From the IMG/VR virus record IMGVR_UViG_3300046167_000036, positions 1 through 28,923 of that record: a stretch of DNA of 28,923 nucleotides; one strand, 5' to 3'. The position numbers and the translations under genes were made by a program. Under the pieces are notes generated by a model. The model did not search any database and was not told the DNA's origin. It saw nothing but the letters and a program-made list of their open reading frames with translations. The stretch is from a virus. Below, piece by piece: positions 2,916-24,342 of this stretch. Every line of letters starts with the position of its first letter. Position 1 is the first letter of the stretch.

Positions 2916-4602
2916 ATGGCTTTTAAATCAAATAACAACCCGATGTTCCGCTCTAAATTTAGTGAGGACATCTTCAAATTCAAATACGCCCACGACGGAT
3001 GTGAAACGTGGGCAGACCTTTCCAGAACACTCGTTGAGGATGTATGTAGTGACCATATGACTAAGGAAGACCGTAGTCAGCTTCAGAAATACATCACAGA
3101 ACTCAAGTTTATTCCTGGGGGTCGATACCTTTATTATGCTGGTCGTCCTAATAAATTCTTCAACAACTGCTATCTCTTAAAAGCTGAAGAAGATAGCCGT
3201 GAAGACTGGGCTAACCTTAGTTGGAAATCCGAGAGCTGTCTGATGACAGGTGGTGGAATTGGTGTTGATTACAGCATCTACCGTCCTGCCGGATCAACCA
3301 TTAGCCGGACTGGTGGAGAAGCATCTGGTGCTATCCCTAAGATGAACATGATCAATGAGATTGGTCGGAGGGTCATGCAAGGCGGTAGTCGTAGATCAGC
3401 CATCTATGCTTCATTAAATTGGAAGCATGGTGATATCGAAGATTTCTTGAAAGCTAAAGACTGGCAATCAATGCCGGTTGGAAGCACTGGTAAAACCCTG
3501 TGGGATATTAAGCAAGAAGACTTCAACTTTCCAGCTCCCTTAGATATGACAAACATTAGTGTGAACTACGACACTGAATGGCTGCTCAATTACTGGAAAA
3601 CAGGTGATGTCGGAAGCGTATTCAAGCAGAATGTAAAACAAGCCATGCAGTCAGCAGAGCCAGGGTTTAGCTTTAATTTCTTTGATAAAGAGAATGAAAC
3701 CCTTCGTAATGCTTGTACTGAGGTTACCAGCGCAGATGATAGTGACGTTTGCAATCTAGGAAGTATTAACCTAGGTCGTGTTGATGATATCGAAGAGTTT
3801 AGAGATATTGTTGATCTAGCAACCAAGTTCCTCATTTGCGGCACTATGAAAGCCCAGCTCCCATATAGAGCTGTTTATGAAACTCGTGAGAAGAACCGTC
3901 GCCTAGGGCTTGGCCTTATGGGGATGCATGAATGGTTAGTGAAGAAAGGGTCTCGCTATGAGGTTACCCCCTGAGCTTCACCAATGGCTGGCAATTTATA
4001 AAGGTCAGTCTGACACCACTAGCCGCAGTTTTGCTGATCTTCATAGTGTCTCCCGTCCTGTTGCTAACAGGGCGATTGCCCCTACAGGTTCTATTGGCAT
4101 TCTGGCTGGCACTAGTACTGGCCTTGAGCCTATTTTTGCTGTGGCTTACAAGCGTCGTTATCTAAAAGGCGGCAACCGCTGGCACTACCAGTATGTCGTG
4201 GATTCAGCAGCACAAGAGCTGATCGATATGTATGCAGCCTAACCCAGATAAGATCGAGTCTGCACTCGACCTCGCTGAAGATTATGAGCGTCGAATGAAA
4301 TTTCAGGCCTGATGTTCAAGACTACGTGGATATGTCTATTAGCTCAACAATCAACCTTCCCTCATGGGGAAGTGACTTTAAATAATGAGGACACAGTAGA
4401 TGATTTCGCTAGCACTCTGGCATCCTATGCCCACAGGCTCAGAGGCTTTACGTGCTACCCAGACGGAAGTCGGGGTGGTCAACCGTTGGTATCAGTACCT
4501 TATAAAGAAGCTGTCGATAAGCTCGGCACGGAATTTGAGGAACACGTAGAAACACACGACATCTGTGACATTAGTGGCACAGGAGGCTCATGTGGCATCT
4601 AG
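2916..4602 (+). CDS. nrdJ: Class II (B12-dependent) ribonucleotide reductase, interrupted by four frameshifts
   Basis: An adenosylcobalamin-dependent reductase making deoxynucleotides for phage DNA. Fragment 1 (2916-3974) carries FIPGGRYLYYAGRPN, NNCYLL (Cys85), CLMTGGGIGVDYS, and the radical loop NACTE with DVCNLGSINL (Cys267, Glu269, Cys279). The protein continues in three other frames: ELHQWLAIYKG...APTGSIGILAGTSTGLEP (3972-4240), NPDKIESALDLAEDYERR (4241-4310), DVQDYVDMSISSTINLPSWG (4311-4380) and NNEDTVDDF to a Cys-containing tail, CDISGTGGSCGI (4381-4602). Removing one base at each of 3967-3971 (C5), about 4238-4240, about 4308-4310 and 4380-4382 (AAA) restores about 560 aa of continuous reductase. 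No clear Shine-Dalgarno precedes the ATG. Insertion sequencing errors are the simplest reading; real decay or recoding is not excluded. Confidence 0.9.
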
Positions 4603-4783
4603 TAAACTACCAGTAATTGATGAACATCTTCTCGACTATCTGGAGAGGATGTTCCCTGATCGCTGTCCTAATATAGATAATGAAGCTAAGGAAGTCTGGT
4701 TTAAATCAGGTGCTGCCTCGGTAGCTCGGCATCTAAGGGCAGTTTATGAACAACAAAATGAAAATATATTGGAGAATTATTGA
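4592..4783 (+). CDS. Small conserved phage protein of unknown function
   Basis: A 63-aa protein whose best start is the GTG at 4592, because AGGAGG (4581-4586) lies five bases upstream; an earlier in-frame GTG at 4565 lacks such a site. It overlaps the end of nrdJ by 11 bases. The segment LPVIDEHLLDYLERMFPDRC with a following WFKSGAASVARHL resembles a small protein commonly found just before the head genes of marine T7-like phages, but I know no function for it. It has no signal peptide, membrane segment or catalytic motif. Its stop overlaps the next ATG (TGATG at 4781-4785). Confidence 0.72.
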   Translation: MASSKLPVIDEHLLDYLERMFPDRCPNIDNEAKEVWFKSGAASVARHLRAVYEQQNENILENY

Positions 4784-14465: not shown

Positions 14466-17400
14466 ATGGGTATAAATGATCTGCCTACTTGGAATCCATC
14501 TGAAGAAGAGCTGGAGGAAATTAGGAAAGAGGAAGAGCGTCGTAAGAGAGCCAAGCAAGCGCAAGCGGCTCAGACAGCAGCTCAACCAACTCCAGCAACT
14601 ACTCCAGCAACTACTCCCGCAACTACTCCCGCACCTACTAACCTCGGGGGTGCTATTGCGGCAGGGCAGGATAACTTTACTGCACGGTTCGAGGCTGGAG
14701 AAGAAGACACTACTGAAGACTCTCTTGTTCTGGATCAGGACTTTCTTGCAGCAGCCCGTAACGTCTATAGTTTCAACAGTAATGGTCGTAAGTTTGAAGG
14801 CTCCGATCAGGAGCTTGCAGACTACGCTCTCGATACTATGGGCTGGTTCAACTACAACCTCCCAAAGATGACTGTAGACGCTGCGATTGTCTCCCGAGCT
14901 GATGACAATACTAAATCTTCCTTCCTTTACCTTATGGAAGCCTATGATGATAAAAATATCTCATGGGACGGAACTTGGCGTTTCATTAAAGGTGTTGGAC
15001 TCGATCCTACAACCTATGCTGGACTTGCCACCTTTGGTATTGGTACAGCCGCTAGTGCTGGGGGTAAGATAGCTACTAAAGAGGGTCTCAAAGCCCTCTT
15101 CAAAGGCGGTATGCGGAACACTGTTATCGCTGGTGTTGAAGGCGGTATTTATTCTGCCGTAGACGACATCAACAGACAGGTCATAGAGACCTCTGTAACT
15201 GGTGAGGACATGGATTATGCCCGTACTGGTAAAGCTGGTTTGTTTGGTGTCGCCACTGCTGGTACTGTCGGCTTTGCTGCCACCCCGCTGATCAATAAGG
15301 TGCAAAAGGCTGCTAGTGCTAAACCAAAGAAACCTAATGCCCAAGCAACTAGCCCTGATAAGACTGTGACTGAATCTCCTACTACTGATGTCTTAAAGGC
15401 CAGCACTAATCTAGAGACTAGGGTCAACGTCGAAGGGGTCACCGAGCCAAAGCTAGGTATCACAGCAGCTCTCATGAAAATCAGAGAAGCTGTGGAAACT
15501 ACCACAAAGCGTGGGTTTGCTGGGGTTGATCCTGAGACAGGCGTACAGAAACGTAAGTCACTCGGGGAAGCCACCCAGATGCTGACCAATGTCCTCAAGG
15601 GCGTCACACGGAATGCTGATGGCTCACTCGATGGTGACTCATTGAACACCCAAATCCTAGGAATGCAGCTTACACAGGCTGAGTACAACGCCCTTAGTAT
15701 TGGTGTTCAGCGTAACATCTCTGATCTGTATGACGAGCTAGGCACTGTAGTTGACAAACAGCTTAATGGTAAGAACCTCCCAGAGGGGGAGCTTGACGAG
15801 CTTACAGTTCTACGAGAAGAAATCGAAGACCTTATACGACAGGCCAATGTTCTTGATGAGGGTTTTCGCTCTACAGCCGCAAGGTCGCTAGGGTCTCGCC
15901 AGCAGTTTTTATATCGTGGTGAGCTGCTAGACATCCTGCCTGATGACATCAAGGCTGATAAAAATATTACTCAGGAAGCCGCCGATCAAGAGTTTGTAGC
16001 CTTGGTAGAGAAACAAAAATCTCTTTACCATAAGGACACAGAGATTCGTAAGATATCTGGAGAGATCGATACAGCCATCAAAAATAACCGCATCGAGAAA
16101 GCCTTCAAGCTATCAGAACAGCGTCATGAGCTTATCAAAGCAAAAATGGATGAGCAGAACCCTGGCATAAGTTATAAGATCAGAGCAACATCCCGTCGTA
16201 CCATTGAAGGTGTCAACGAGTTTGTTATTGGCACAGTGTTTACCACATCTACTATTGTAGTGAACACCGTTCCATCTTTGGTAAAGACATTATATAAACC
16301 ATTCCTAAACTTTGTGGTTGAAGGTGATTATTCTTCAGTCGGTATGGGTAAGCTTGGAGCCACTTATGGTGCTATGGGTAAAACCATAGGAACAGCCGGA
16401 AGAGCTGCTATCGCCGCTTATAAATACGAGCGGTCTATGCTTACAGGTGACTACAGTAAATTCATGGAGAACCATAACATTCTCCCTCAGCGTTATAAGA
16501 AATGGATACCAGCAGGGTCTGTTATTCGGTTCTTCCCTAACGTACTCAACATGACTGACGAGTTCTTTGCACAAGTGAATTACCGTGGGTTTGTCGAGGG
16601 AAAGGCTGTAGGCAACGCCTTAGCTAAACACCAAGCTGAACTGGCATCGGGTAAACGTAAGAAACCTTTAAAAGGTGCGAAGCTTGAGGCTTATGTTAAA
16701 AAAGAGGTCGATCAGGTAATACTGAAAGCCTTTGATAACCTTGACGCTACCCAGATCAAAAGCCAACTCTTAGAGCAAGCCAAGGCTCGAGGCATGAACG
16801 CTGTTCAAGCTAAGAAGTTTGTGGCTAGTGAGTTCAAAAAGAACGAAAGTTTGTTTTCTCGTGGTGTAAACCGTGAGGGACGCTCCTACACAGAAGACCT
16901 GTTGTTTAAACGGCAGTTCTCTGGGGACGGCCTTGCGTCAAGCACAGCAAAAACTTACGAACAGTTTGTGAGAGATAACCCTTGGATGAAAATCATGGGA
17001 CAGCTCTTCTTCCGTACTCCTGTCAGGGTGTTCGAGGAAGGCATTCGTATGACCCCAGGATTACAGCTTATAGCTCCTAAGTATCTTGCAGACCTACGTG
17101 GTTCTAACGGTACTGCTCGGCAAGTACGGGCGCAGGGTGAGGCTTTACTGTCCTACGGTATCGCTGGATACGTAATGATGCAGTATGCTCAAGGTAATTT
17201 AACTGGCTCTGGATCAGGTGACTACAAGCGTCGTAAGATGCAGGAAGATACCGATAGACAGCAGCCTTACACGATGAAGTTCGATGATGGCACTACGTTA
17301 AGCTATAAGAACTATGACCCCTTCTCTACACCAATCAAAATCCTCGTTAATGCTTTTGAGGCTTATGAGGAAGTTGAGTATCGTAGGAGACAGGGTGAGT

Positions 17401-18248
17401 ACGTCGAGGATGAAGCAGCTCTGGTACGGGATCGTGTGTATATTGCAGCAGGGTCTATTTTCAATGCAATCAAAGACGCTAACCTTATGTCAGGACTAGC
17501 AGACGTAACAAACCTTATGACAGACCTTGGTAAAGAAGAGGCATGGTATAGAGATGTAATGAAGTTCATGGGTAAAAAAGCCCAGCTTGCATTTCCTAAC
17601 ATGATCTACAAGACCAAGAATGCCTTCTTTGAGACTGAGCCTACATTGAAAGACCCAAGGGGATTTCTACAGCATCTTGAAGCTCGTATGGATTTAGGAT
17701 TAACCTCTGTATCTAATCAGTATGATGCCCTAGGAATTGCTAGGCCAATGGAAAAACCCATCAATAGTTTGACTGGTGTATTCATTACAGATGAAGAGGA
17801 TCGTCGTAAAGGTAAGAGTGATGAGGAATTATTTGTTCTAAGGAAACTAGAGTTGATTGCTATAGCAACTGACTCATCATTTGAAACACCTAAACGCATA
17901 CCTTCTTTCTTTGGAAACACTGATCTAGCTGCCGAACCTTACCCAGATGACTCTGGGCGCACTTTGTTCGACAGGTACAATGAGATTTACAGGGATGCCA
18001 ACGGTGGTCTTGTGAACATCTTATACCCCATCTTAGCTAACTCTGATGGTTTCTACGGTACTGCGAGTCAGGACGGAGCAATCACACAGGTTGTCCGATC
18101 AGTCATTAATGATCAGCGTCAGTTAGCAGCTCTGCTTTTATTAGATGAGCTAGGTAAAATTAACACCATTGCTGACCGACAGGTTCGCAAAGCTGAGTCC
18201 AAAGCCGGACTACGAGATGACAACATATTCCCTAATGTTCGAGATTAA
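14466..18248 (+). CDS. Internal virion protein D (gp16-like ejection protein), no visible transglycosylase
   Basis: At 1260 aa this is the largest gene and equals T7 gp16 (1318 aa) in position and size; gp16 spans the inner membrane during DNA ejection. Residues 1-60 are charged and then Pro/Ala/Thr-rich with a four-copy repeat. A conserved marine-podophage block follows (GWFNYNLPKMTVDAAIV; SFLYLMEAYDDKNISWDGTW; RFIKGVGLDPTTYAGLATFG), then helical charged regions, a hydrophobic patch near residues 590-610 (EFVIGTVFTTSTIVVNTVP), and FRTPVRVFEEGIRMTPG. T7 gp16 carries a lytic transglycosylase at its N-terminus, but I see no SLT-type motif here. Upstream site is weak (GTGAGGTAAATT). Confidence 0.88.
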   Translation: MGINDLPTWNPSEEELEEIRKEEERRKRAKQAQAAQTAAQPTPATTPATTPATTPAPTNLGGAIAAGQDNFTARFEAGEEDTTEDSLVLDQDFLAAARNVYSFNSNGRKFEGSDQELADYALDTMGWFNYNLPKMTVDAAIVSRADDNTKSSFLYLMEAYDDKNISWDGTWRFIKGVGLDPTTYAGLATFGIGTAASAGGKIATKEGLKALFKGGMRNTVIAGVEGGIYSAVDDINRQVIETSVTGEDMDYARTGKAGLFGVATAGTVGFAATPLINKVQKAASAKPKKPNAQATSPDKTVTESPTTDVLKASTNLETRVNVEGVTEPKLGITAALMKIREAVETTTKRGFAGVDPETGVQKRKSLGEATQMLTNVLKGVTRNADGSLDGDSLNTQILGMQLTQAEYNALSIGVQRNISDLYDELGTVVDKQLNGKNLPEGELDELTVLREEIEDLIRQANVLDEGFRSTAARSLGSRQQFLYRGELLDILPDDIKADKNITQEAADQEFVALVEKQKSLYHKDTEIRKISGEIDTAIKNNRIEKAFKLSEQRHELIKAKMDEQNPGISYKIRATSRRTIEGVNEFVIGTVFTTSTIVVNTVPSLVKTLYKPFLNFVVEGDYSSVGMGKLGATYGAMGKTIGTAGRAAIAAYKYERSMLTGDYSKFMENHNILPQRYKKWIPAGSVIRFFPNVLNMTDEFFAQVNYRGFVEGKAVGNALAKHQAELASGKRKKPLKGAKLEAYVKKEVDQVILKAFDNLDATQIKSQLLEQAKARGMNAVQAKKFVASEFKKNESLFSRGVNREGRSYTEDLLFKRQFSGDGLASSTAKTYEQFVRDNPWMKIMGQLFFRTPVRVFEEGIRMTPGLQLIAPKYLADLRGSNGTARQVRAQGEALLSYGIAGYVMMQYAQGNLTGSGSGDYKRRKMQEDTDRQQPYTMKFDDGTTLSYKNYDPFSTPIKILVNAFEAYEEVEYRRRQGEYVEDEAALVRDRVYIAAGSIFNAIKDANLMSGLADVTNLMTDLGKEEAWYRDVMKFMGKKAQLAFPNMIYKTKNAFFETEPTLKDPRGFLQHLEARMDLGLTSVSNQYDALGIARPMEKPINSLTGVFITDEEDRRKGKSDEELFVLRKLELIAIATDSSFETPKRIPSFFGNTDLAAEPYPDDSGRTLFDRYNEIYRDANGGLVNILYPILANSDGFYGTASQDGAITQVVRSVINDQRQLAALLLLDELGKINTIADRQVRKAESKAGLRDDNIFPNVRD
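14592..14639 (+). repeat. Four tandem 12-bp repeats in the gp16-like gene
   Basis: Unit CCAGCAACTACT occurs four times in a row (14592, 14604, 14616, 14628), the third and fourth with CCAG changed to CCCG and the last with one more change. It encodes Pro-Ala-Thr-Thr repeats, a flexible linker after the charged N-terminus. Copy number may vary between relatives. Confidence 0.95.
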
Positions 18249-18262
18249 TAAGGAAAAACATA

Positions 18263-19546
18263 ATGGCAAACTCCATTTATGAAGCCACAGGTGATGGAAG
18301 CACCACGGATTTTACTATTCCGTACACTTACCTAGAAGCTAACGATGTAACGGCTTTCATAGGTGGAGTTTCCACTCCCTTTACTTTTACATCAAATAAT
18401 ATTGTATCTTTTACTACAGCTCCTGCAAACGGGGCTAGCTTACGGATAGTACGTAACACAGATATCGACAGCCTCAACGTCACATATTCAGACGGTGGTG
18501 CGTTAACTGCTGAACAGTTAAATGACTCTAACACTCAGCTTTTATTCGGCGTACAAGAGGCTATCGATACTGCTAACGGGGCTATGATTCTCGATAACGA
18601 CGGTAAGTTTCAGGGTCAGGTATCCAGTACTAACCGTGTAGTTAAGAATGTAGCTAACCCTGTTGATCCTCAGGATGTAGCTACTAAAGACTACCTTGAG
18701 AATACTTGGTTATCACCTACAGATAAAACTAACTTAACCAATGTATCTAATATTTCTAGTGAGGTAACAACTACTGCTGGTATTGCTAGTGATATTACGG
18801 CAGTAGCTGCTGATGCTACAGACATTGGAGTAGTCTCTACTAGTATAGCAAGTGTTAATACTAACGCTGATAGTATAGCGTCTATTAACACCAACGCCGC
18901 TAACATTGCAGACATCCAGAACGCATCAGCTAATGCTACAACAGCTACAACTAAGGCTAGTGAAGCTAGTGGGTTTGCTGATGAAGCTGAAGCATGGGCA
19001 ATAAAAATAGATGGTGAAGCTGTAGCTAGTGAAGGTTATTCTTCTAAGGCTTGGGCTGTAGGAGGACAAGGCGTTACTGACACAGCGGGTGCTGGTGCTG
19101 CTAAAGATTGGGCAACAGAAACCACTGGTCAAGTAGATGGTACAGAGTATTCTGCGAAGGAGTACGCTGTTGGCGCACAAGCTAGTAACACTTCTGGCTC
19201 CGCTAAACAGTGGTCACTGGGTGGTGGCACAGGTTTTGACCGTGACACGGCTGTTACTGGCTCCGGTCTCACTGCTGAATATTCGGCAAGGTACTGGGCA
19301 AACCAAGCAGCTAACTCTGCTCAAGATTTTGTGGATGTTTACTACGGTTCGTTCACTTCAGACACGGCTGCTGAAGATTACCAGATAAATGATAATCAAG
19401 GCTCTGTGAATGTTGGTGATCTATACTTCAACAGCTCAGACAATGTGATGCGAGTGCGATCATTTTCTGGGTGGAATGACGTAGCAGCAGACACAACAAA
19501 CTTTGCTACAAACGGTTTCGCAATCGCAATGGCAATCGCCCTTTAG
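18263..19546 (+). CDS. Tail fibre protein (gp17-like N-terminus), lacking a receptor-binding C-terminus
   Basis: A 427-aa fibre. Residues 1-150 match the T7 gp17 tail-attachment domain: YEATGDGSTTDFTIPYTYLE, VRNTDIDSLNVTYSDGGALT, LFGVQEAIDTAN, PVDPQDVATKDYLEN. Residues 155-240 are Ala/Thr/Asn-rich heptad-like sequence. Residues 240-350 hold repeats of a Trp/Tyr-Ala/Ser-Lys-x-Trp/Tyr-Ala motif (EAEAWAIKIDGE, YSSKAWAVGG, YSAKEYAVGA, SAKQWSLGGG, YSARYWANQA), common in marine fibres. The end (VNVGDLYFNSSDNVMRVRSF) is a short beta module. There is no large C-terminal receptor domain, which fits the idea that the following small genes supply it. AAGGA precedes the ATG. Confidence 0.93.
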   Translation: MANSIYEATGDGSTTDFTIPYTYLEANDVTAFIGGVSTPFTFTSNNIVSFTTAPANGASLRIVRNTDIDSLNVTYSDGGALTAEQLNDSNTQLLFGVQEAIDTANGAMILDNDGKFQGQVSSTNRVVKNVANPVDPQDVATKDYLENTWLSPTDKTNLTNVSNISSEVTTTAGIASDITAVAADATDIGVVSTSIASVNTNADSIASINTNAANIADIQNASANATTATTKASEASGFADEAEAWAIKIDGEAVASEGYSSKAWAVGGQGVTDTAGAGAAKDWATETTGQVDGTEYSAKEYAVGAQASNTSGSAKQWSLGGGTGFDRDTAVTGSGLTAEYSARYWANQAANSAQDFVDVYYGSFTSDTAAEDYQINDNQGSVNVGDLYFNSSDNVMRVRSFSGWNDVAADTTNFATNGFAIAMAIAL

Positions 19547-19902: not shown

Positions 19903-20397
19903 ATGGGTTACATTGGTAATCAAGCAGTACAGGGCTTCAGCAGTATACCTGCAAAGCAAGACCTGACTGGTGCTACTGGCACAACACTAACACTCTCTCA
20001 CCCTGTATCTAGCCCAGAGGCTATTGACCTGTACATCAATAACGTCCGTCAGGAGCCTACTGAGGCTTACTCAGCAGCAGCTACTACAGTTACCCTCACA
20101 GGTTCTGTTGTGGCTACTGACGATATCTATGTGGTCTATAACGCCCTAGCTTTACAGACATCTGTACCGCCTGATGGCTCTGTTACATCAGCCAAGCTAG
20201 ACCCCAACCTTGTATTAGGTGGTGGCAGCTTCCTTGGTGATAGTGGTGGTGGAACGGCAGATATCTTTCGGGTGCATCAAAGTGAGTTAAACACAAGCGT
20301 CACAATCCCAGCCAATTCAAACGCCTTATGCGCCGGAGCTTTAACATTAGCAACAGGAGTTACCGTGACAGTAAACGGTAATCTGGTGATAGCATGA
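19903..20397 (+). CDS. Tail-fibre module with YIG-type anchor domain (short form)
   Basis: A 164-aa protein starting MGYIGNQAVQGFSSIPAK. Its core (LTLSHPVSSPEAIDLYINNV; VTLTGSVVATDDIYVVYNAL; DGSVTSAKLDPNL) is the 'N-G-V-x-Q-x-P / D-x-I-x-V-V' fibre module, and is repeated in the gene at 22952. The C-terminus (VTIPANSNALCAGALTLATG; VTVTVNGNLVIA) looks like the end of an autonomous trimeric fibre segment. AGGGAGAG precedes the ATG. Its stop overlaps the next ATG by four bases (ATGA). It probably acts in the fibre complex; receptor binding is inferred. Confidence 0.75.
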   Translation: MGYIGNQAVQGFSSIPAKQDLTGATGTTLTLSHPVSSPEAIDLYINNVRQEPTEAYSAAATTVTLTGSVVATDDIYVVYNALALQTSVPPDGSVTSAKLDPNLVLGGGSFLGDSGGGTADIFRVHQSELNTSVTIPANSNALCAGALTLATGVTVTVNGNLVIA

Positions 20398-20831
20398 GTG
20401 AATTACGTACAGACACAATCACTGCCAGCGATGGCACCAGTCCGGTTACGTTGACTAAACAGGAAGCCATAAAGTTTTGGGTAACTTATAATGCTGTTAA
20501 TAATCAAACTGAAGGGTCACTAAACCAAAGCGGTTTGATAGATGAAGCAGCCGGAAGACATCACTCTACGTTTACTACTGTTTTTGGTTCTTCAACAGAT
20601 AAATGTGCAATAGCAAGTGTCTATAATTCCGCTAATAATACTGCACATTATATAAATGATAATAGAGGCGGCGTTATTGCAAATATAGGAACATCGACTA
20701 GTGGAACATTTAGGGCATTGAGTGCATCTGAAATTCAGTTCCAAACCAGTTATGGTTCTCACGCAAGCGCACACGGTGATCAGGCTGATTTATTTGCAGT
20801 TTATGTGATGGTAACAGGAGATTTAGCATGA
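20394..20831 (+). CDS. Tail-fibre module 1 of the GDLA family
   Basis: A 145-aa protein starting MSELRTDTITASDGTSPVTL, an anchor segment usually found inside larger fibres, followed by TKQEAIKFWVTYNAVNN and a beta-rich domain ending VYVMVTGDLA. It is related to the genes at 20828, 21238 and 22518: the same x-x-W/L-V-x-(F/Y) entry strand, an Asn-rich middle, and the terminal Gly-Asp-Leu-Ala. Base composition becomes clearly AT-rich after the anchor (from about 20470). It overlaps both neighbours by four bases (ATGA). I infer a trimeric receptor-binding or chaperone-like fibre tip; no enzymatic motif is seen. Confidence 0.78.
   Translation: MSELRTDTITASDGTSPVTLTKQEAIKFWVTYNAVNNQTEGSLNQSGLIDEAAGRHHSTFTTVFGSSTDKCAIASVYNSANNTAHYINDNRGGVIANIGTSTSGTFRALSASEIQFQTSYGSHASAHGDQADLFAVYVMVTGDLA
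20816..20821 (+). promoter_or_regulatory. Ribosome site encoded by the GDLA codons (for 20828)
   Basis: AGGAGA, six bases before the ATG at 20828, is formed by the codons of the Thr-Gly-Asp stretch just before the C-terminal Leu-Ala. It doubles as coding sequence. Confidence 0.7.
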
Positions 20832-21238
20832 GTGAGATAAAAGTAGACACGCTCACTGGCAAGACCGCAGCTAAGACAGTGACTATGACTGTTGGTGCTA
20901 CCGTTACGCAGTCTCTTGAGAAAGGCTTGTCAAAGTGTTGGGTAAATTTTGATGGCACAGTAGATGCAGACCCCGCAACTTTAGCGGGCGTAGCAGAAAG
21001 TCTCAATGTATCTTCACTGTTTGATGTTGATCAAGGCCGATACTACGCAAATCTAGTCAATAATTTTACAAATGCTAATTTTGTTCGCACTGTTTCGTCA
21101 AGGGCGCAGAGTTACAATGCGTCTTTAGATGCCACTTATGTTGGCTCTGATAAAGTGTCTATGGCTGTTCGCCAAGATACAGGGGCTTATATAGACGTAG
21201 CTATAAACTGTATAATATGTCAGGGAGACCTAGCGTAA
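20828..21238 (+). CDS. Tail-fibre module 2 of the GDLA family
   Basis: A 136-aa protein starting MSEIKVDTLTGKTAAKTVTM, an anchor often found within marine phage fibres as 'IKVDTLTGKT-AKTVTV', followed by TVTQSLEKGLSKCWVNFDGT and a beta domain with SLNVSSLFDVDQGRYYANLV. It ends INCIICQGDLA. The 'LEKGLxKxWVNF ... NVSS ... D-x-G-x-Y' signature is the commonest form of this fibre-tip domain. It overlaps the genes on both sides, upstream by ATGA and downstream by one base (TAATG). Role inferred from family: host recognition or completion of the fibre trimer. Confidence 0.8.
   Translation: MSEIKVDTLTGKTAAKTVTMTVGATVTQSLEKGLSKCWVNFDGTVDADPATLAGVAESLNVSSLFDVDQGRYYANLVNNFTNANFVRTVSSRAQSYNASLDATYVGSDKVSMAVRQDTGAYIDVAINCIICQGDLA
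21222..21228 (+). promoter_or_regulatory. Ribosome site encoded by the GDLA codons (for 21238)
   Basis: AGGGAGA lies nine bases before the ATG at 21238 and is formed by the Gln-Gly-Asp codons of the upstream module's C-terminus. Confidence 0.7.
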
Positions 21239-21651
21239 TGGCTGGAAAAATTCTTGCGGATACCTTTCAAGGCACAGATTCAACTGAAACTGTAAGTGGA
21301 GCCAGTGTAACTATACCAACATCTGTTGCTTCTAAATATGTAGTTAATGGCACTTTAAAAGCGTGGGCAGGAACGCTAGACAGTACTGGAGCAACAATAA
21401 ATAATTCTTTGAATGTGTCATCAAAAACAGATGAATCAGGTGCTGGGGTGTTTACTTATGCCCTTATAAATGCCGCTGCTGAACAAATGGATGCGTCTGC
21501 TTTGAGTGCGCTTGGCGGTGGTGCGGCTAGATTTATACGGATTGCAAGTAACGCTACAACAACAACTAATTTTCAATTAGTTTCGGTTTCTTCCAGTGGT
21601 TCAAATGAAAATGGCTCACATAACTGGATGTTTGCGGGGGAGTTGGCCTAA
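21238..21651 (+). CDS. Tail-fibre module 3 of the GDLA family
   Basis: A 137-aa protein. I choose the ATG at 21238 (MAGKILADTFQGTDSTETVS) over the in-frame ATG at 21217, because it follows AGGGAGA and overlaps the previous stop by one base, as in the sister genes. A short anchor is followed by VNGTLKAWAGTLDSTGATIN, SLNVSSKTDESGAGVFTYAL and a terminal WMFAGELA, in which Glu replaces the Asp of the other members. The NVSS-x-x-D-x-x-x-G core is shared with module 2. The stop overlaps the next ATG by one base. Confidence 0.78.
   Translation: MAGKILADTFQGTDSTETVSGASVTIPTSVASKYVVNGTLKAWAGTLDSTGATINNSLNVSSKTDESGAGVFTYALINAAAEQMDASALSALGGGAARFIRIASNATTTTNFQLVSVSSSGSNENGSHNWMFAGELA
21636..21642 (+). 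promoter_or_regulatory. Ribosome site encoded by the GELA codons (for 21651)
   Basis: GGGGGAG lies eight bases before the ATG at 21651 and is formed by the Ala-Gly-Glu codons at the C-terminus of module 3. Confidence 0.7.
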
Positions 21652-22127
21652 TGACCCAGACACCACAGTTCAAAGGCACAAAACTGTTTGACCGCCTATG
21701 CTGGGCGAAAGAAAACCTAGACGGTGTGCAGTCAGACTATCGTGTAGTCTTTGAGGACAGTGTAGACGAGTGCGCTAAGATACTTGTTCCTGACCCTAAC
21801 TGGATGGCGTGTGCGTTACAAGGCGGCATCCTGCCACCAGTGTGGGTGTATCACGAACTGGCAAAGGATGAAGCACAGCCTGACTTCAAGAAGCACACCA
21901 GAGGTTACTTACTGCACAACACTGAACCTGTTGAGGCTATGACTGAGGAAGAAGCAATTGAGTACTTAATTCTCAAGGACTGCCCACAAAGTGTGATCGA
22001 AACATATAACGAAGGCAACCGTCTAAAGATGGTTATCTGTAAGAAAGAACAACTACCTCAAACGAGAGAGTGGCGTAACGCTTGGAAGATTAGCGATGAC
22101 CTCTCTTTAACTGACCTAGCCGCATAG
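21651..22127 (+). CDS. Conserved protein in tail-fibre locus, possible fibre chaperone
   Basis: A 158-aa acidic/basic mixed protein, not beta-repetitive like its neighbours. It has FKGTKLFDRLCWAKENLDGV at the start, VPDPNWMACALQGGILPPVW in the middle, an acidic helix (MTEEEAIEYLILKDCPQSVI) and a C-terminal KMVICKKEQLPQTREWRNAW. The last segment resembles 'LPxxRxFRxAWxL' in tail-assembly-chaperone-like proteins and is echoed by FRGAWVLNG in the next gene. I do not recognise the N-terminal two thirds. Base composition is more balanced than in the adjacent modules. The start overlaps the previous stop by one base (TAATG). Confidence 0.6.
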   Translation: MTQTPQFKGTKLFDRLCWAKENLDGVQSDYRVVFEDSVDECAKILVPDPNWMACALQGGILPPVWVYHELAKDEAQPDFKKHTRGYLLHNTEPVEAMTEEEAIEYLILKDCPQSVIETYNEGNRLKMVICKKEQLPQTREWRNAWKISDDLSLTDLAA

Positions 22128-22136
22128 GAGAAACAA

Positions 22137-22502
22137 ATGGTCAATACTTATATCGTAGATAAAGACGGTAATCAGGCAGATGCCTCAACCGTAACAGTAC
22201 CAGCCAATCGTGATTTCCGTGGTGCTTGGGTACTCAATGGTGCAGTGATCTCAGAAGATATGGACTCTGCACGTGACATCTTTAAGGACAAAGTTCGTGA
22301 GGCTCGTAAGCCTCTGTTAGAAGCTAAAGACGTAGAGTTGATGAAGGCACTAGAGACAAGCGCAGACACAACAGCTATTGCTGCTGCTAAGAACGCACTG
22401 CGTGATGCACCAGCTAATGCAGCTATTGCTTCAGCGTCTACCATCACAGAACTTAAAGCTGCTTGGGATACTGCCACACTTGGTGACAATCCTTACGCAT
22501 AA
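22137..22502 (+). CDS. Tail-fibre assembly chaperone-like protein (DUF4376/XkdW-like)
   Basis: A 121-aa protein. Residues 20-45 (PANRDFRGAWVLNGAVISED, then MDSARDI) are followed by a helical region: KVREARKPLLEAKDVELMKA, LETSADTTAIAAAKNALRDA. The order 'FRxAW ... D-M-x-x-A ... R-x-x-R-x-x-x-L ... KxxLRDxP' is that of small chaperone-like proteins that sit next to phage tail fibres (DUF4376/XkdW-like). It probably helps fold or assemble fibre modules; the family assignment is from memory of the pattern. The previous stop lies within its Shine-Dalgarno (TAGGAGA). Confidence 0.68.
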   Translation: MVNTYIVDKDGNQADASTVTVPANRDFRGAWVLNGAVISEDMDSARDIFKDKVREARKPLLEAKDVELMKALETSADTTAIAAAKNALRDAPANAAIASASTITELKAAWDTATLGDNPYA

Positions 22503-22517
22503 GGAAGGATTACACTA

Positions 22518-22952
22518 ATGGCTTTATCTAAAATAGACGCAGATGGTGTATCTGGTTTACAGGCAGCACTAACGGCAACAACAACTGTCCCATCTGAGGG
22601 TGGGGCGGTTAATACTAATCTTGTGCAAGGGTTGTGCAAGGCGTTGCTTCTTTTCAATCAACTAAGCGGCACCGCAACAAGCGTCAGAACAATGAATATC
22701 GCATCCTTGGTTGACGGCGCAAACGGTATGTCAACTGTAAGCTTTACAAGCAGCTTTGATGCGGTTGATTACTGTCATTTGACAGGTGCAGCCACAGACG
22801 GCGGTAATGCTAATTGTGCAACTATAAATCGTGATAATTCTGATTCTAATGCAACTACAAGCAGTATGCCTATAGTTGTACAAGTTAGTAGCACGACTAC
22901 AGATGACAATAGAGATTTTAACAGTATTGGTTGGTGGGGAGACTTAGCTTAA
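22518..22952 (+). CDS. Tail-fibre module 4 of the GDLA family
   Basis: A 144-aa protein starting MALSKIDADGVSGLQAALTA, a different anchor from modules 1-3, but with the same fold signature afterwards: TNLVQGLCKALLLFNQLSG, the TMNIASLVDGANGMSTVSFT core (compare NVSS-x-x-D) and a terminal SIGWWGDLA. It follows the two chaperone-like genes, so the family is split into 3+1. TAAGGAAGGA upstream is a strong ribosome site that includes the previous stop codon. The stop overlaps the next ATG by one base. Confidence 0.78.
   Translation: MALSKIDADGVSGLQAALTATTTVPSEGGAVNTNLVQGLCKALLLFNQLSGTATSVRTMNIASLVDGANGMSTVSFTSSFDAVDYCHLTGAATDGGNANCATINRDNSDSNATTSSMPIVVQVSSTTTDDNRDFNSIGWWGDLA
22936..22942 (+). promoter_or_regulatory. 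Ribosome site encoded by the GDLA codons (for 22952)
   Basis: GGGGAGA lies nine bases before the ATG at 22952 and is formed by the Trp-Gly-Asp codons at the C-terminus of module 4. Confidence 0.7.
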
Positions 22953-23851
22953 TGCCGTACATAGGAAAATCCCCAGTAGGCGGCGGGTTCCACAAGCTGG
23001 ACAACCTGACTGCCTCTGCCACGGCTACCTACGCTTTGACGCTAGGTTCTGCGGCATACTTTCCAGAGACTGCTAACCAACTGCTAGTCTCTCTCAACGG
23101 TGTGATCCAAGCACCACAAGACAGCTTCACAGTATCAGGTAGCAACCTTGTATTTGACAGCGCACTGACAGCCAGCGACAGCATTGACTTTGTTGTAGCT
23201 CTTGGTGATGTGTTAAGTGTGGGTTCTGTTACTGACGGTGCTGTGACTACGGCCAAGATTGCCAATGGTGCTGTCACTGCTAATAAGTTAGCGTCTGGTG
23301 TAGGTGGTGTAGCTGGTATCTCATCAAGCAGTACTAGCGGAACAGCGTTGAGTATCAATGCCAATAATATTGTAACTAACTCTGTGCCTGTTGGTTTTTC
23401 AGCAGCGTTAGAAACTAATTTTGCAACAGACGCAAGCGACTACTATCGAGTACCACTCAAAACAAATATATCGTCTTTAAGTGGCGTACTTTTTGACACT
23501 CATAACGGATGGGATAATACAAATAATTATTACACCATCCCTAATGGTTTAGATGGCTATTGGTTTTTACATGCTGCTGCTGAATTTAACTTTATAGCTA
23601 CTGCTACTAGAATGATGATTTCTAGCGGCACTTCTGTTGGTACTCTGGCAGATTTTATAGCATTTAGTCACGGTGCTGGGGCTTCTGGTTCTGCAAATGC
23701 TCATCCAAAAGCTACAATTATTAAATATTTCACTGCTGGTGAAATAATAAATATGCAAGCGTATCAAAATCATAGTGACGGAGTAGTTGTGCAAGCTAGT
23801 TCATCTTCAAGCGGAATGAGAAGTTACATGCAAGGATGGAGATTGTTCTAA
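22952..23851 (+). CDS. Tail-fibre protein: YIG anchor plus C1q-like receptor-binding domain
   Basis: A 299-aa protein. I choose the ATG at 22952 (MPYIGKSPVGGGFHKLDNLT), which overlaps the previous stop, not the upstream ATG at 22931. Residues 1-120 are the fibre anchor: NQLLVSLNGVIQAPQDSFTV, SDSIDFVVALGDVLSVGSVT and DGAVTTAKIANGAVTANKLA. From about residue 150 the sequence looks like a C1q/TNF-type jelly roll: GVLFDTHNGWDNTNNYYTIP, GYWFLHAAAEFN, FTAGEIINMQAYQNHS and the final SYMQGWRLF. Such domains are typical host-recognition tips. Composition shifts from about 52% GC (23041-23100, hand count) to about 35% (23521-23580), suggesting domain exchange. Confidence 0.82.
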   Translation: MPYIGKSPVGGGFHKLDNLTASATATYALTLGSAAYFPETANQLLVSLNGVIQAPQDSFTVSGSNLVFDSALTASDSIDFVVALGDVLSVGSVTDGAVTTAKIANGAVTANKLASGVGGVAGISSSSTSGTALSINANNIVTNSVPVGFSAALETNFATDASDYYRVPLKTNISSLSGVLFDTHNGWDNTNNYYTIPNGLDGYWFLHAAAEFNFIATATRMMISSGTSVGTLADFIAFSHGAGASGSANAHPKATIIKYFTAGEIINMQAYQNHSDGVVVQASSSSSGMRSYMQGWRLF

Positions 23852-24342
23852 TGGCACTTATAAAACTAAACAATCAGTCTCTCACGGCAGTCTCTGCGTT
23901 ACCAGCGGCGATCACTACTGGAACTGTACTCCAAGTAGTTAGTGGATCGACAACTACTCAAACATCAACCAGTTCTACTAGCTTTCAAGCTACAAATATA
24001 ACAGCGTCTATTACCCCATCATCGGCGTCTAGTAAAATATTTGTTATGGTGACTGCTGCAACAGAAACCAGAACAAGCGCTAGTAATGGCAGCTATCCAC
24101 AGGTTATAGCAGTTTTTAGAGATTCAACTGAAATTGCGTCAACAGCTATTGGAACTAGAGAGGCTTCTGGATTTTTTGATCATGTTAATTCTGGAACTTC
24201 AGTATCAAAACTTGACACACCAGCTACAACATCAGCAATAACATACACTGTAAAGATAAAGTCAAACATGTCTGCTACAACGGTGTCTTGTCCATTTGGT
24301 GGATATGAGGGTGTAATTACACTAACGGAAATCGCTGGCTGA
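23851..24342 (+). CDS. Tail-fibre-like protein with ITPSSASSKI-type domain
   Basis: A 163-aa beta-rich protein. The ATG at 23851 overlaps the previous stop and follows GGAGA (23838-23842); the earlier ATG at 23836 is inside the previous gene. The start MALIKLNNQSLTAVSALPA is a short anchor, and TNITASITPSSASSKIFVMV with YPQVIAVFRDSTEIASTAIG matches a widespread phage fibre domain ('L-x-x-x-I-T-P-x-S-x-x-S-K-I-x-V'). Its C-terminus is VSCPFGGYEGVITLTEIAG. It is probably the last receptor-binding component of this locus and is AT-rich. Its stop overlaps the following ATG by one base. Confidence 0.78.
   Translation: MALIKLNNQSLTAVSALPAAITTGTVLQVVSGSTTTQTSTSSTSFQATNITASITPSSASSKIFVMVTAATETRTSASNGSYPQVIAVFRDSTEIASTAIGTREASGFFDHVNSGTSVSKLDTPATTSAITYTVKIKSNMSATTVSCPFGGYEGVITLTEIAG

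Follow-up and report, generated by a model that had tools for sequence, protein, structure and literature searches.

Several small tail genes in this viral DNA end in almost the same residues, and the following gene begins on their stop codons. This arrangement raises the question of how protein modules could be exchanged within an operon of overlapping genes without breaking it, and whether the shared end codons are part of the answer. The window, that is the whole 28,923-nucleotide stretch analysed here (positions 1 to 28,923 of IMG/VR record IMGVR_UViG_3300046167_000036), is a fragment of an HMO-2011-type podovirus. Phages of this type are abundant among marine viruses of bacteria.

An array of small tail fibre genes

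Domain searches of the window found a family A DNA polymerase fragment (a partial DNA_pol_A gene at the left end), a 5'-3' exonuclease, a ribonucleotide reductase, a T7-type tail fibre and a lysozyme, together with a weak match to a terminase. The tail genes and the array (Table 1) have the same order in the window and in Puniceispirillum phage HMO-2011, with 33% of the region alignable at 74% nucleotide identity, over two conserved genes; the product of one conserved array gene, P0007, is 79.7% identical to its HMO-2011 counterpart.

Table 1. Genes and sites of the array and its upstream neighbour, in positions of the window. SD, Shine-Dalgarno sequence.
Feature	Position	Strand	Basis or detail
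T7-type tail fibre protein, upstream neighbour of the array	18263..19546	+	Pfam Phage_T7_tail N-terminal domain, PF03906, E 2.5e-26
MGYIG-type tail protein, first of the array, ends NLVIA	19903..20397	+	PHROG 18673 tail fibre, E 6.4e-8
Slot A gene, slot anchor plus exchangeable module, ends TGDLA	20394..20831	+	end codons ACA GGA GAT TTA GCA TGA
Slot A 5' exchange joint, K-F-W codons	20472..20480	+	aligned to joints mapped in relatives
GGAGAT, Gly-Asp codons, 3' exchange joint and putative SD for the gene at 20828	20817..20822	+	
Slot B gene, ends QGDLA	20828..21238	+	sequence; AlphaFold2 model; end codons CAG GGA GAC CTA GCG TAA
Slot B 5' exchange joint, K-C-W codons	20933..20941	+	K36 opens the first strand of the predicted domain
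GGAGAC, Gly-Asp codons, 3' exchange joint and putative SD for the gene at 21238	21224..21229	+	
Slot C gene, ends AGELA	21238..21651	+	start from the conserved MAGKI N-terminus of relatives; end codons GCG GGG GAG TTG GCC TAA
Slot C 5' exchange joint, K-A-W codons	21358..21366	+	aligned to mapped joints
GGGGAG, Gly-Glu codons, 3' joint and putative SD for the gene at 21651	21637..21642	+	
P0007, conserved gene after slot C, 158 aa, not a module	21651..22127	+	
Conserved gene, weakly like a phage tail assembly chaperone	22137..22502	+	PF16778, E 0.0026, below its cut-off
Slot D gene, ends WGDLA	22518..22952	+	end codons TGG GGA GAC TTA GCT TAA
Slot D 5' exchange joint, K-A-L codons	22638..22646	+	alignment with L007
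GGAGAC, Gly-Asp codons, 3' joint and putative SD for the gene at 22952	22938..22943	+	
MPYIGKSP-type tail fibre gene, ends GWRLF	22952..23851	+	TGG AGA spells GGAGA before TAATG
Other module type, ends TEIAG, last gene of the array	23851..24342	+	

A sequence-only reading of this DNA had claimed that four modules end in Gly-Asp/Glu-Leu-Ala, that their x-Gly-Asp/Glu codons form a purine-rich SD, and that the next ATG overlaps the stop. All of this stands. The stops at 20831, 21238, 21651 and 22952 close reading frames ending in TGDLA, QGDLA, AGELA and WGDLA (GDLA three times, GELA once); the purine-rich stretch lies 6, 9, 8 and 9 nucleotides, respectively, before the next ATG, and the overlap has the form ATGA at 20828 and TAATG at 21238, 21651 and 22952. 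The four ends are homologous rather than independent inventions, GDLA being the C-terminus of one homologous family, and two of the four genes that follow them (21651-22127 and 22952-23851) do not belong to the module family. The first gene of the array also overlaps the slot A start, by 4 nucleotides, with a GGTGAT within its end that is able to pair with the anti-SD. The starts at 21217, 22931 and 23836 given in the list of open reading frames were rejected as too far upstream, the relatives starting at 21238, 22952 and 23851. The TEIAG-ending last gene, searched from the 23836 start, had no Pfam match.

By annotation of their sequences, the modules are tail fibre proteins: 112 of 114 aligned members match PHROG 11355 at E <= 0.001, among them window slots A, B and D, and slot C (P0003) had no match in a single-protein scan. 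A Pfam search of the modules returned no family. An AlphaFold2 model of the slot-B protein, made with 114 sequences, has a mean pLDDT of 82. In this model Lys36 opens the first strand (35-41) and GDLA comes after the last (126-132), and therefore the exchanged unit would be one whole beta-sandwich. A structural alignment places residues 34-135 on the C-terminal domain of the phiAB6 tailspike (5js4; Z 9.0, rmsd 2.9 over 91 residues, 12% sequence identity). This score came from a second structural aligner; Foldseek against the PDB gave nothing under E 0.001, and comparing the sequence with those of solved structures yielded no significant hit. Weaker matches to the Pam1 tailspike, AP22 gp53, snail H-type lectins (2ce6 and 4q56; Z about 5.8, 5-7% identity) and a pyocin fibre may reflect a common arrangement only. 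The predicted domain probably binds a receptor; the phiAB6- and lectin-like fold fits this role, and a shared fold is by itself no demonstration of binding.

Anchors stay in their slots while modules move

We collected 80 viral contigs carrying the conserved gene that occupies 21651-22127 in the window, most of these loci being metagenome assemblies. Their arrays contain seven slots, told apart by conserved N-termini (A, MSELR/MSTLK; B, MSEIKVD; C, MAGKI; D, MALSK; E, MTSVLNVD; F, MASILKVD; G, MASELRV); some of the slots are separated by fixed genes that are not modules, and the window carries slots A to D. Each protein consists of an anchor of 25-50 residues followed by a module of about 95. 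When slots were assigned by the next gene, the nearest relative of an anchor shared its slot in 337 of 355 cases (95%), whereas that of a module did so in only 98 of 355 (28%; 15% expected by chance).

The same module can be found in different slots. With a threshold of 75% nucleotide identity, we count 30 cross-slot pairs (27 non-redundant), and 23 of 41 module clusters span several slots. The best cross-slot pairs reach 97-100% nucleotide identity and are, judged by their sequences, recent events. The slot-D module of the window, for example, also occurs in slot C of one relative (L007) and in slot A of another (L083). Moreover, HMO-2011 has two modules in common with other slots, and the participation of this isolate makes it hard to attribute every case to assembly error. 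No single contig was seen to carry copies of one module in two slots.

The limits of the exchanged unit are sharp. In the mean of the 27 pairs, identity leaves the background level and exceeds 0.9 at the Lys codon of a Lys-x-Trp block, and it returns to that level with the third base of the GDLA Leu codon; same-slot pairs are alike through both flanks. In addition, the Leu codon follows the slot (CTA/TTA in 51 of 53 slot A genes, CTC/CTT in 47 of 54 slot E genes). Since identity breaks at both joints and the Leu codon stays with the slot, the exchanged unit extends from Lys-x-Trp to Gly-Asp. Slot-locked anchors, cross-slot modules and their breakpoints are thus directly visible in the alignments, and the shuffling of modules, which had been proposed as an inference, is supported by modules shared between slots with breakpoints at the GDLA codons.

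End codons track the downstream start

If the end codons serve the next gene, their choice should follow the SD and not only the protein. Among 249 distinct ends from the first 82 loci, the Gly codon is GGA in 240 and GGG in 9, and never GGT or GGC, although these genes use GGT more than any other Gly codon, and an internal Gly before Asp or Glu is GGR in only 27.6% of 221 cases. A family profile run on all fetched loci extended this to 426 distinct G[DE]LA ends (GGA 412, GGG 13, GGT 1); since the sequences are related, such counts of ends are not independent, and one end per 40%-identity module cluster still gives GGR in 60 of 60. The isolate HMO-2011 itself carries five GDLA ends, each of them encoded with GGA-GAC and overlapped by the ATG that follows.

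Wherever the sequence downstream of a G[DE]LA end is readable, a start lies within 10 nucleotides, nearly always overlapping the stop and at -1 or -4; where a contig stops too early, TAATG can still be read. The proposed dual use of the end codons is supported by these starts and by a GGR Gly codon in 425 of 426 G[DE]LA ends. Only two GDLA ends (L178 and L185) clearly have no overlapping start, and GGA is present in both. One locus (L148, GGT GAT) was considered as a counter-case and dropped, since pairing of its GGTGAT with the anti-SD is possible and an overlapping TTG is the probable start of the following gene.

The comparison that separates SD from protein comes from homologues with ends other than G[DE]LA. 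Here, GGR is tied to the downstream start, as had been suggested: the ratio of GGR to GGY is 47 to 2 with a near start and 10 to 9 with a far one (Fisher p = 7e-5, relatedness uncorrected). Similarly, the last five codons include an SD core in 469 of 480 ends with a near start and in 3 of 118 with a far one. Ends in which another residue takes the place of Asp retain this core by other means: GSLA ends are always GGG AGT, spelling GGGAG, GGLA ends are GGA GGY or GGG GGA, and the GGQA/GGQS ends of another phage group are GGR GGC before TAATG or ATGA, the start being overlapping or adjacent in all of them. In two further loci (L213 and L228), the stop precedes GGAGACCTA, which stays as a non-coding leader of the next gene. 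Taken together, the Asp-replaced ends, the near/far contrast and this leader favour the SD over the protein as the reason for the end codons, and a codon bias that tracks the downstream start is visible in the sequences. The RNA is also less structured at the junction than inside the modules.

An SD inside the end of the upstream gene is common in overlapping phage genes, and so the coupling by itself is not special. Nor is GDLA needed for it, since other overlaps in the arrays form GGAG from other residues: WRLF (TGG AGA), WSIV before slot E, and EIAG. These ends fit the explanation that the codon pattern is a by-product of ordinary SD placement, in which GDLA happens to supply the SD and the modules diverge in place without being specially exchangeable. 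However, modules mix between slots, with most nearest neighbours lying in other slots and sharp joints at the GDLA codons. Moreover, two codons are biased where SD use offers no explanation. The Asp codon is GAC in 384 ends and GAT in 36, a bias explained neither by the SD nor by the protein. Likewise, the Lys codon of the 5' joint is AAG in 194 of 217 cases in the arrays (AAA in 23), against 473 AAG and 614 AAA elsewhere in the same genes (44% AAG); in homologues outside the arrays the joint has AAG in 58 of 89. The by-product explanation is already largely refuted by the slot-mixing and breakpoint results, and we consider it unlikely.

Because GAC and AAG are biased where the SD cannot explain it, recurrent exchange probably also helps to keep the joint DNA alike, and the same DNA being exchanged again and again may account for part of the end-codon conservation. 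One could go further and propose that GGAGAC is kept mainly as recombination homology, its SD activity being incidental. The GAC bias, the sharp joints and a joint DNA that is near-constant at both ends, although the modules are mostly just 20-40% identical, all agree with this. It does not account for an SD core that survives the loss of Asp, or for a Gly codon that relaxes to GGY in homologues with far starts; the non-coding GGAGACCTA of two loci also speaks against it, though recombination homology could explain that case too. As the main cause of the pattern, we find it quite improbable. At the other positions of the ends, the third bases of the Leu and Ala codons vary, but CTG and TTG are rare.

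Proposed mechanism

Our preferred reading, to which we give a probability of roughly 0.83, is that slot anchors are combined with domains swapped at two short blocks, the 3' block serving also as the SD of the next gene. The array would encode small tail-fibre proteins, each with a slot-specific N-terminal anchor and an exchangeable beta-sandwich domain of about 95 residues, and recombination at two short blocks of conserved sequence would pass this domain from slot to slot and from genome to genome. The 5' block, AAGGC[GT]TGG (Lys-x-Trp), would open the first strand, and the 3' block, GGAGAC (Gly-Asp), would lie just after the last. The Leu codon, the stop and the ATG would remain with the slot, and the 3' block would double as the SD of the gene whose start overlaps that stop, on the premise, deduced from the codon pattern, that ribosomes use it. 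An incoming domain ending in GGAGAC would therefore bring a correct protein end and leave the downstream gene translatable.

We infer that the exchange takes place between co-infecting relatives by ordinary homologous or annealing recombination. A search of the window and HMO-2011 found no Erf or RecT recombinase; HMO-2011 has a tyrosine integrase. Programmed switching by an invertase shufflon or a diversity-generating retroelement, which the multiple positions and hypervariable tips might bring to mind, is highly unlikely, as searches of the window (a fragment) and the complete HMO-2011 record found neither a reverse transcriptase (PF00078) nor a serine resolvase/invertase (PF00239), the modules of the window are not flanked by inverted joint copies, the 5' and 3' joints have different sequences, and the variation is replacement of a whole domain.

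It is tempting to extend the preferred reading of anchors and swapped domains to a standing cassette system, in which equivalent slots take any receptor-binding domain, the joints are selected for exchangeability, and the 3' joint has evolved so that exchange never breaks the expression of the next slot. We regard this broader idea as tentative and, on balance, somewhat doubtful.

Discussion

Domain exchange in tail fibres is well known. What the array adds is a concrete case in which a recombination joint, a protein end and a putative ribosome site fall within a few shared codons, and thereby one answer to how modular exchange may avoid breaking an overlapping operon: a newly inserted domain should keep its neighbour gene switched on. 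Moreover, slots and joints make a countable system, in which one can type the modules, quantify from metagenomes how they pass between slots and genomes, and test the domains one at a time.

We found no description of slots or joints of HMO-2011-type phages in the literature searched, the scope of which lay largely outside subscription journals. The word fiber is absent from the main comparative paper (PMC9038755), another study notes tail-fibre variation and nothing further on it (PMC6918029), and a third states that it could not locate where larger exchanged modules begin and end (PMC8528129). The PHROG 11355 entry is likewise silent on slots, exchange joints and an SD in the C-terminus. Judged against the literature searched, three things are new: the layout with several slots, the mapping of the joints, and the finding that exchange joint, protein end and predicted ribosome site coincide.

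Several known systems share parts of this design. In T4-type adhesins, tips are exchanged at conserved glycine-rich or His-box motifs. The array resembles them in using short conserved motifs as tip-swapping joints; however, their motifs lie within one adhesin, whereas here the joint apparently doubles as the SD of the downstream gene. The array also resembles stop-start translational coupling (ATGA, TAATG) in its start-stop overlap and in a putative SD within the upstream coding sequence. Such coupling is usually not tied to a portable domain end, as the overlap in the array is.

Another parallel is found in modular phage receptor-binding proteins, such as those of Klebsiella phages (PMC8262889) and modular tailspikes (PMC10408124). 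In these, the anchor at the N-terminus is conserved for attachment, and the tip at the C-terminus is a replaceable specificity domain exchanged by recombination. As in those proteins, a conserved anchor carries an exchanged distal domain, here seen in the 95% versus 28% of same-slot neighbours. The array differs in that its interchangeable slots are a series of short genes within one genome, and the 3' joint would also serve the translation of the next gene.

Module ends and the Shine-Dalgarno layout

Where the Gly-Asp or Gly-Glu codons (typically GGAGAC) close an exchanged tail-fibre module ending in G[DE]LA (the 3' joint), the G-ending leucine codons CTG and TTG are almost missing (10 of 426 ends), whereas they make up about one-third of leucine codons in the rest of the modules. 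The residue just N-terminal to GDLA is histidine in 142 of 358 modules (~40%). In one related locus, L148, a long fibre protein has a GDLA module attached at its end, and a homologue of the window's conserved non-module gene comes next.

The same GGAGA-spacer-TAATG arrangement is built by other residues at the end of the MPYIGKSP tail fibre gene, GWRLF, through the codons TGG AGA TTG TTC TAA TG. In two related loci with premature module ends, GGAGACCTA is retained past the early stop as a non-coding leader of the following gene. A second module type ends in [TM]EIAG, once in the window and at 33 ends in other loci; here GAG ATN precedes ATGA or TGATG, and GGAG is formed in some ends only.

Coordinates of the features discussed
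Locus	Position	Feature
Window	2916-3974	similarity to ribonucleotide reductase
Window	2916-4783	reductase region, including several short overlapping ORFs that follow
Window	14466-18248	1260-aa protein
Window	21651-22127	conserved non-module gene
Window	23837-23851	GWRLF end
Window	23851-24342	[TM]EIAG module
L148	1836	fibre-GDLA fusion
L213	2960-3030	premature end, VVIHR*
L228	3315-3380	premature end, VTVTR*

Other genes and phages

The ribonucleotide reductase region, with the short ORFs after it, is possibly a split or interrupted gene. The 1260-aa protein shows similarity (37% over 82%) to the internal virion protein D encoded by Pseudomonas phage LUZ100. Finally, a second phage group (L103, L104, L121, L125, L126, L128, L154 and L158) carries GGQA/GGQS ends (GGAGGCCAAGCATAATG) in the same arrangement as the GDLA ends, and may represent a parallel slot system.
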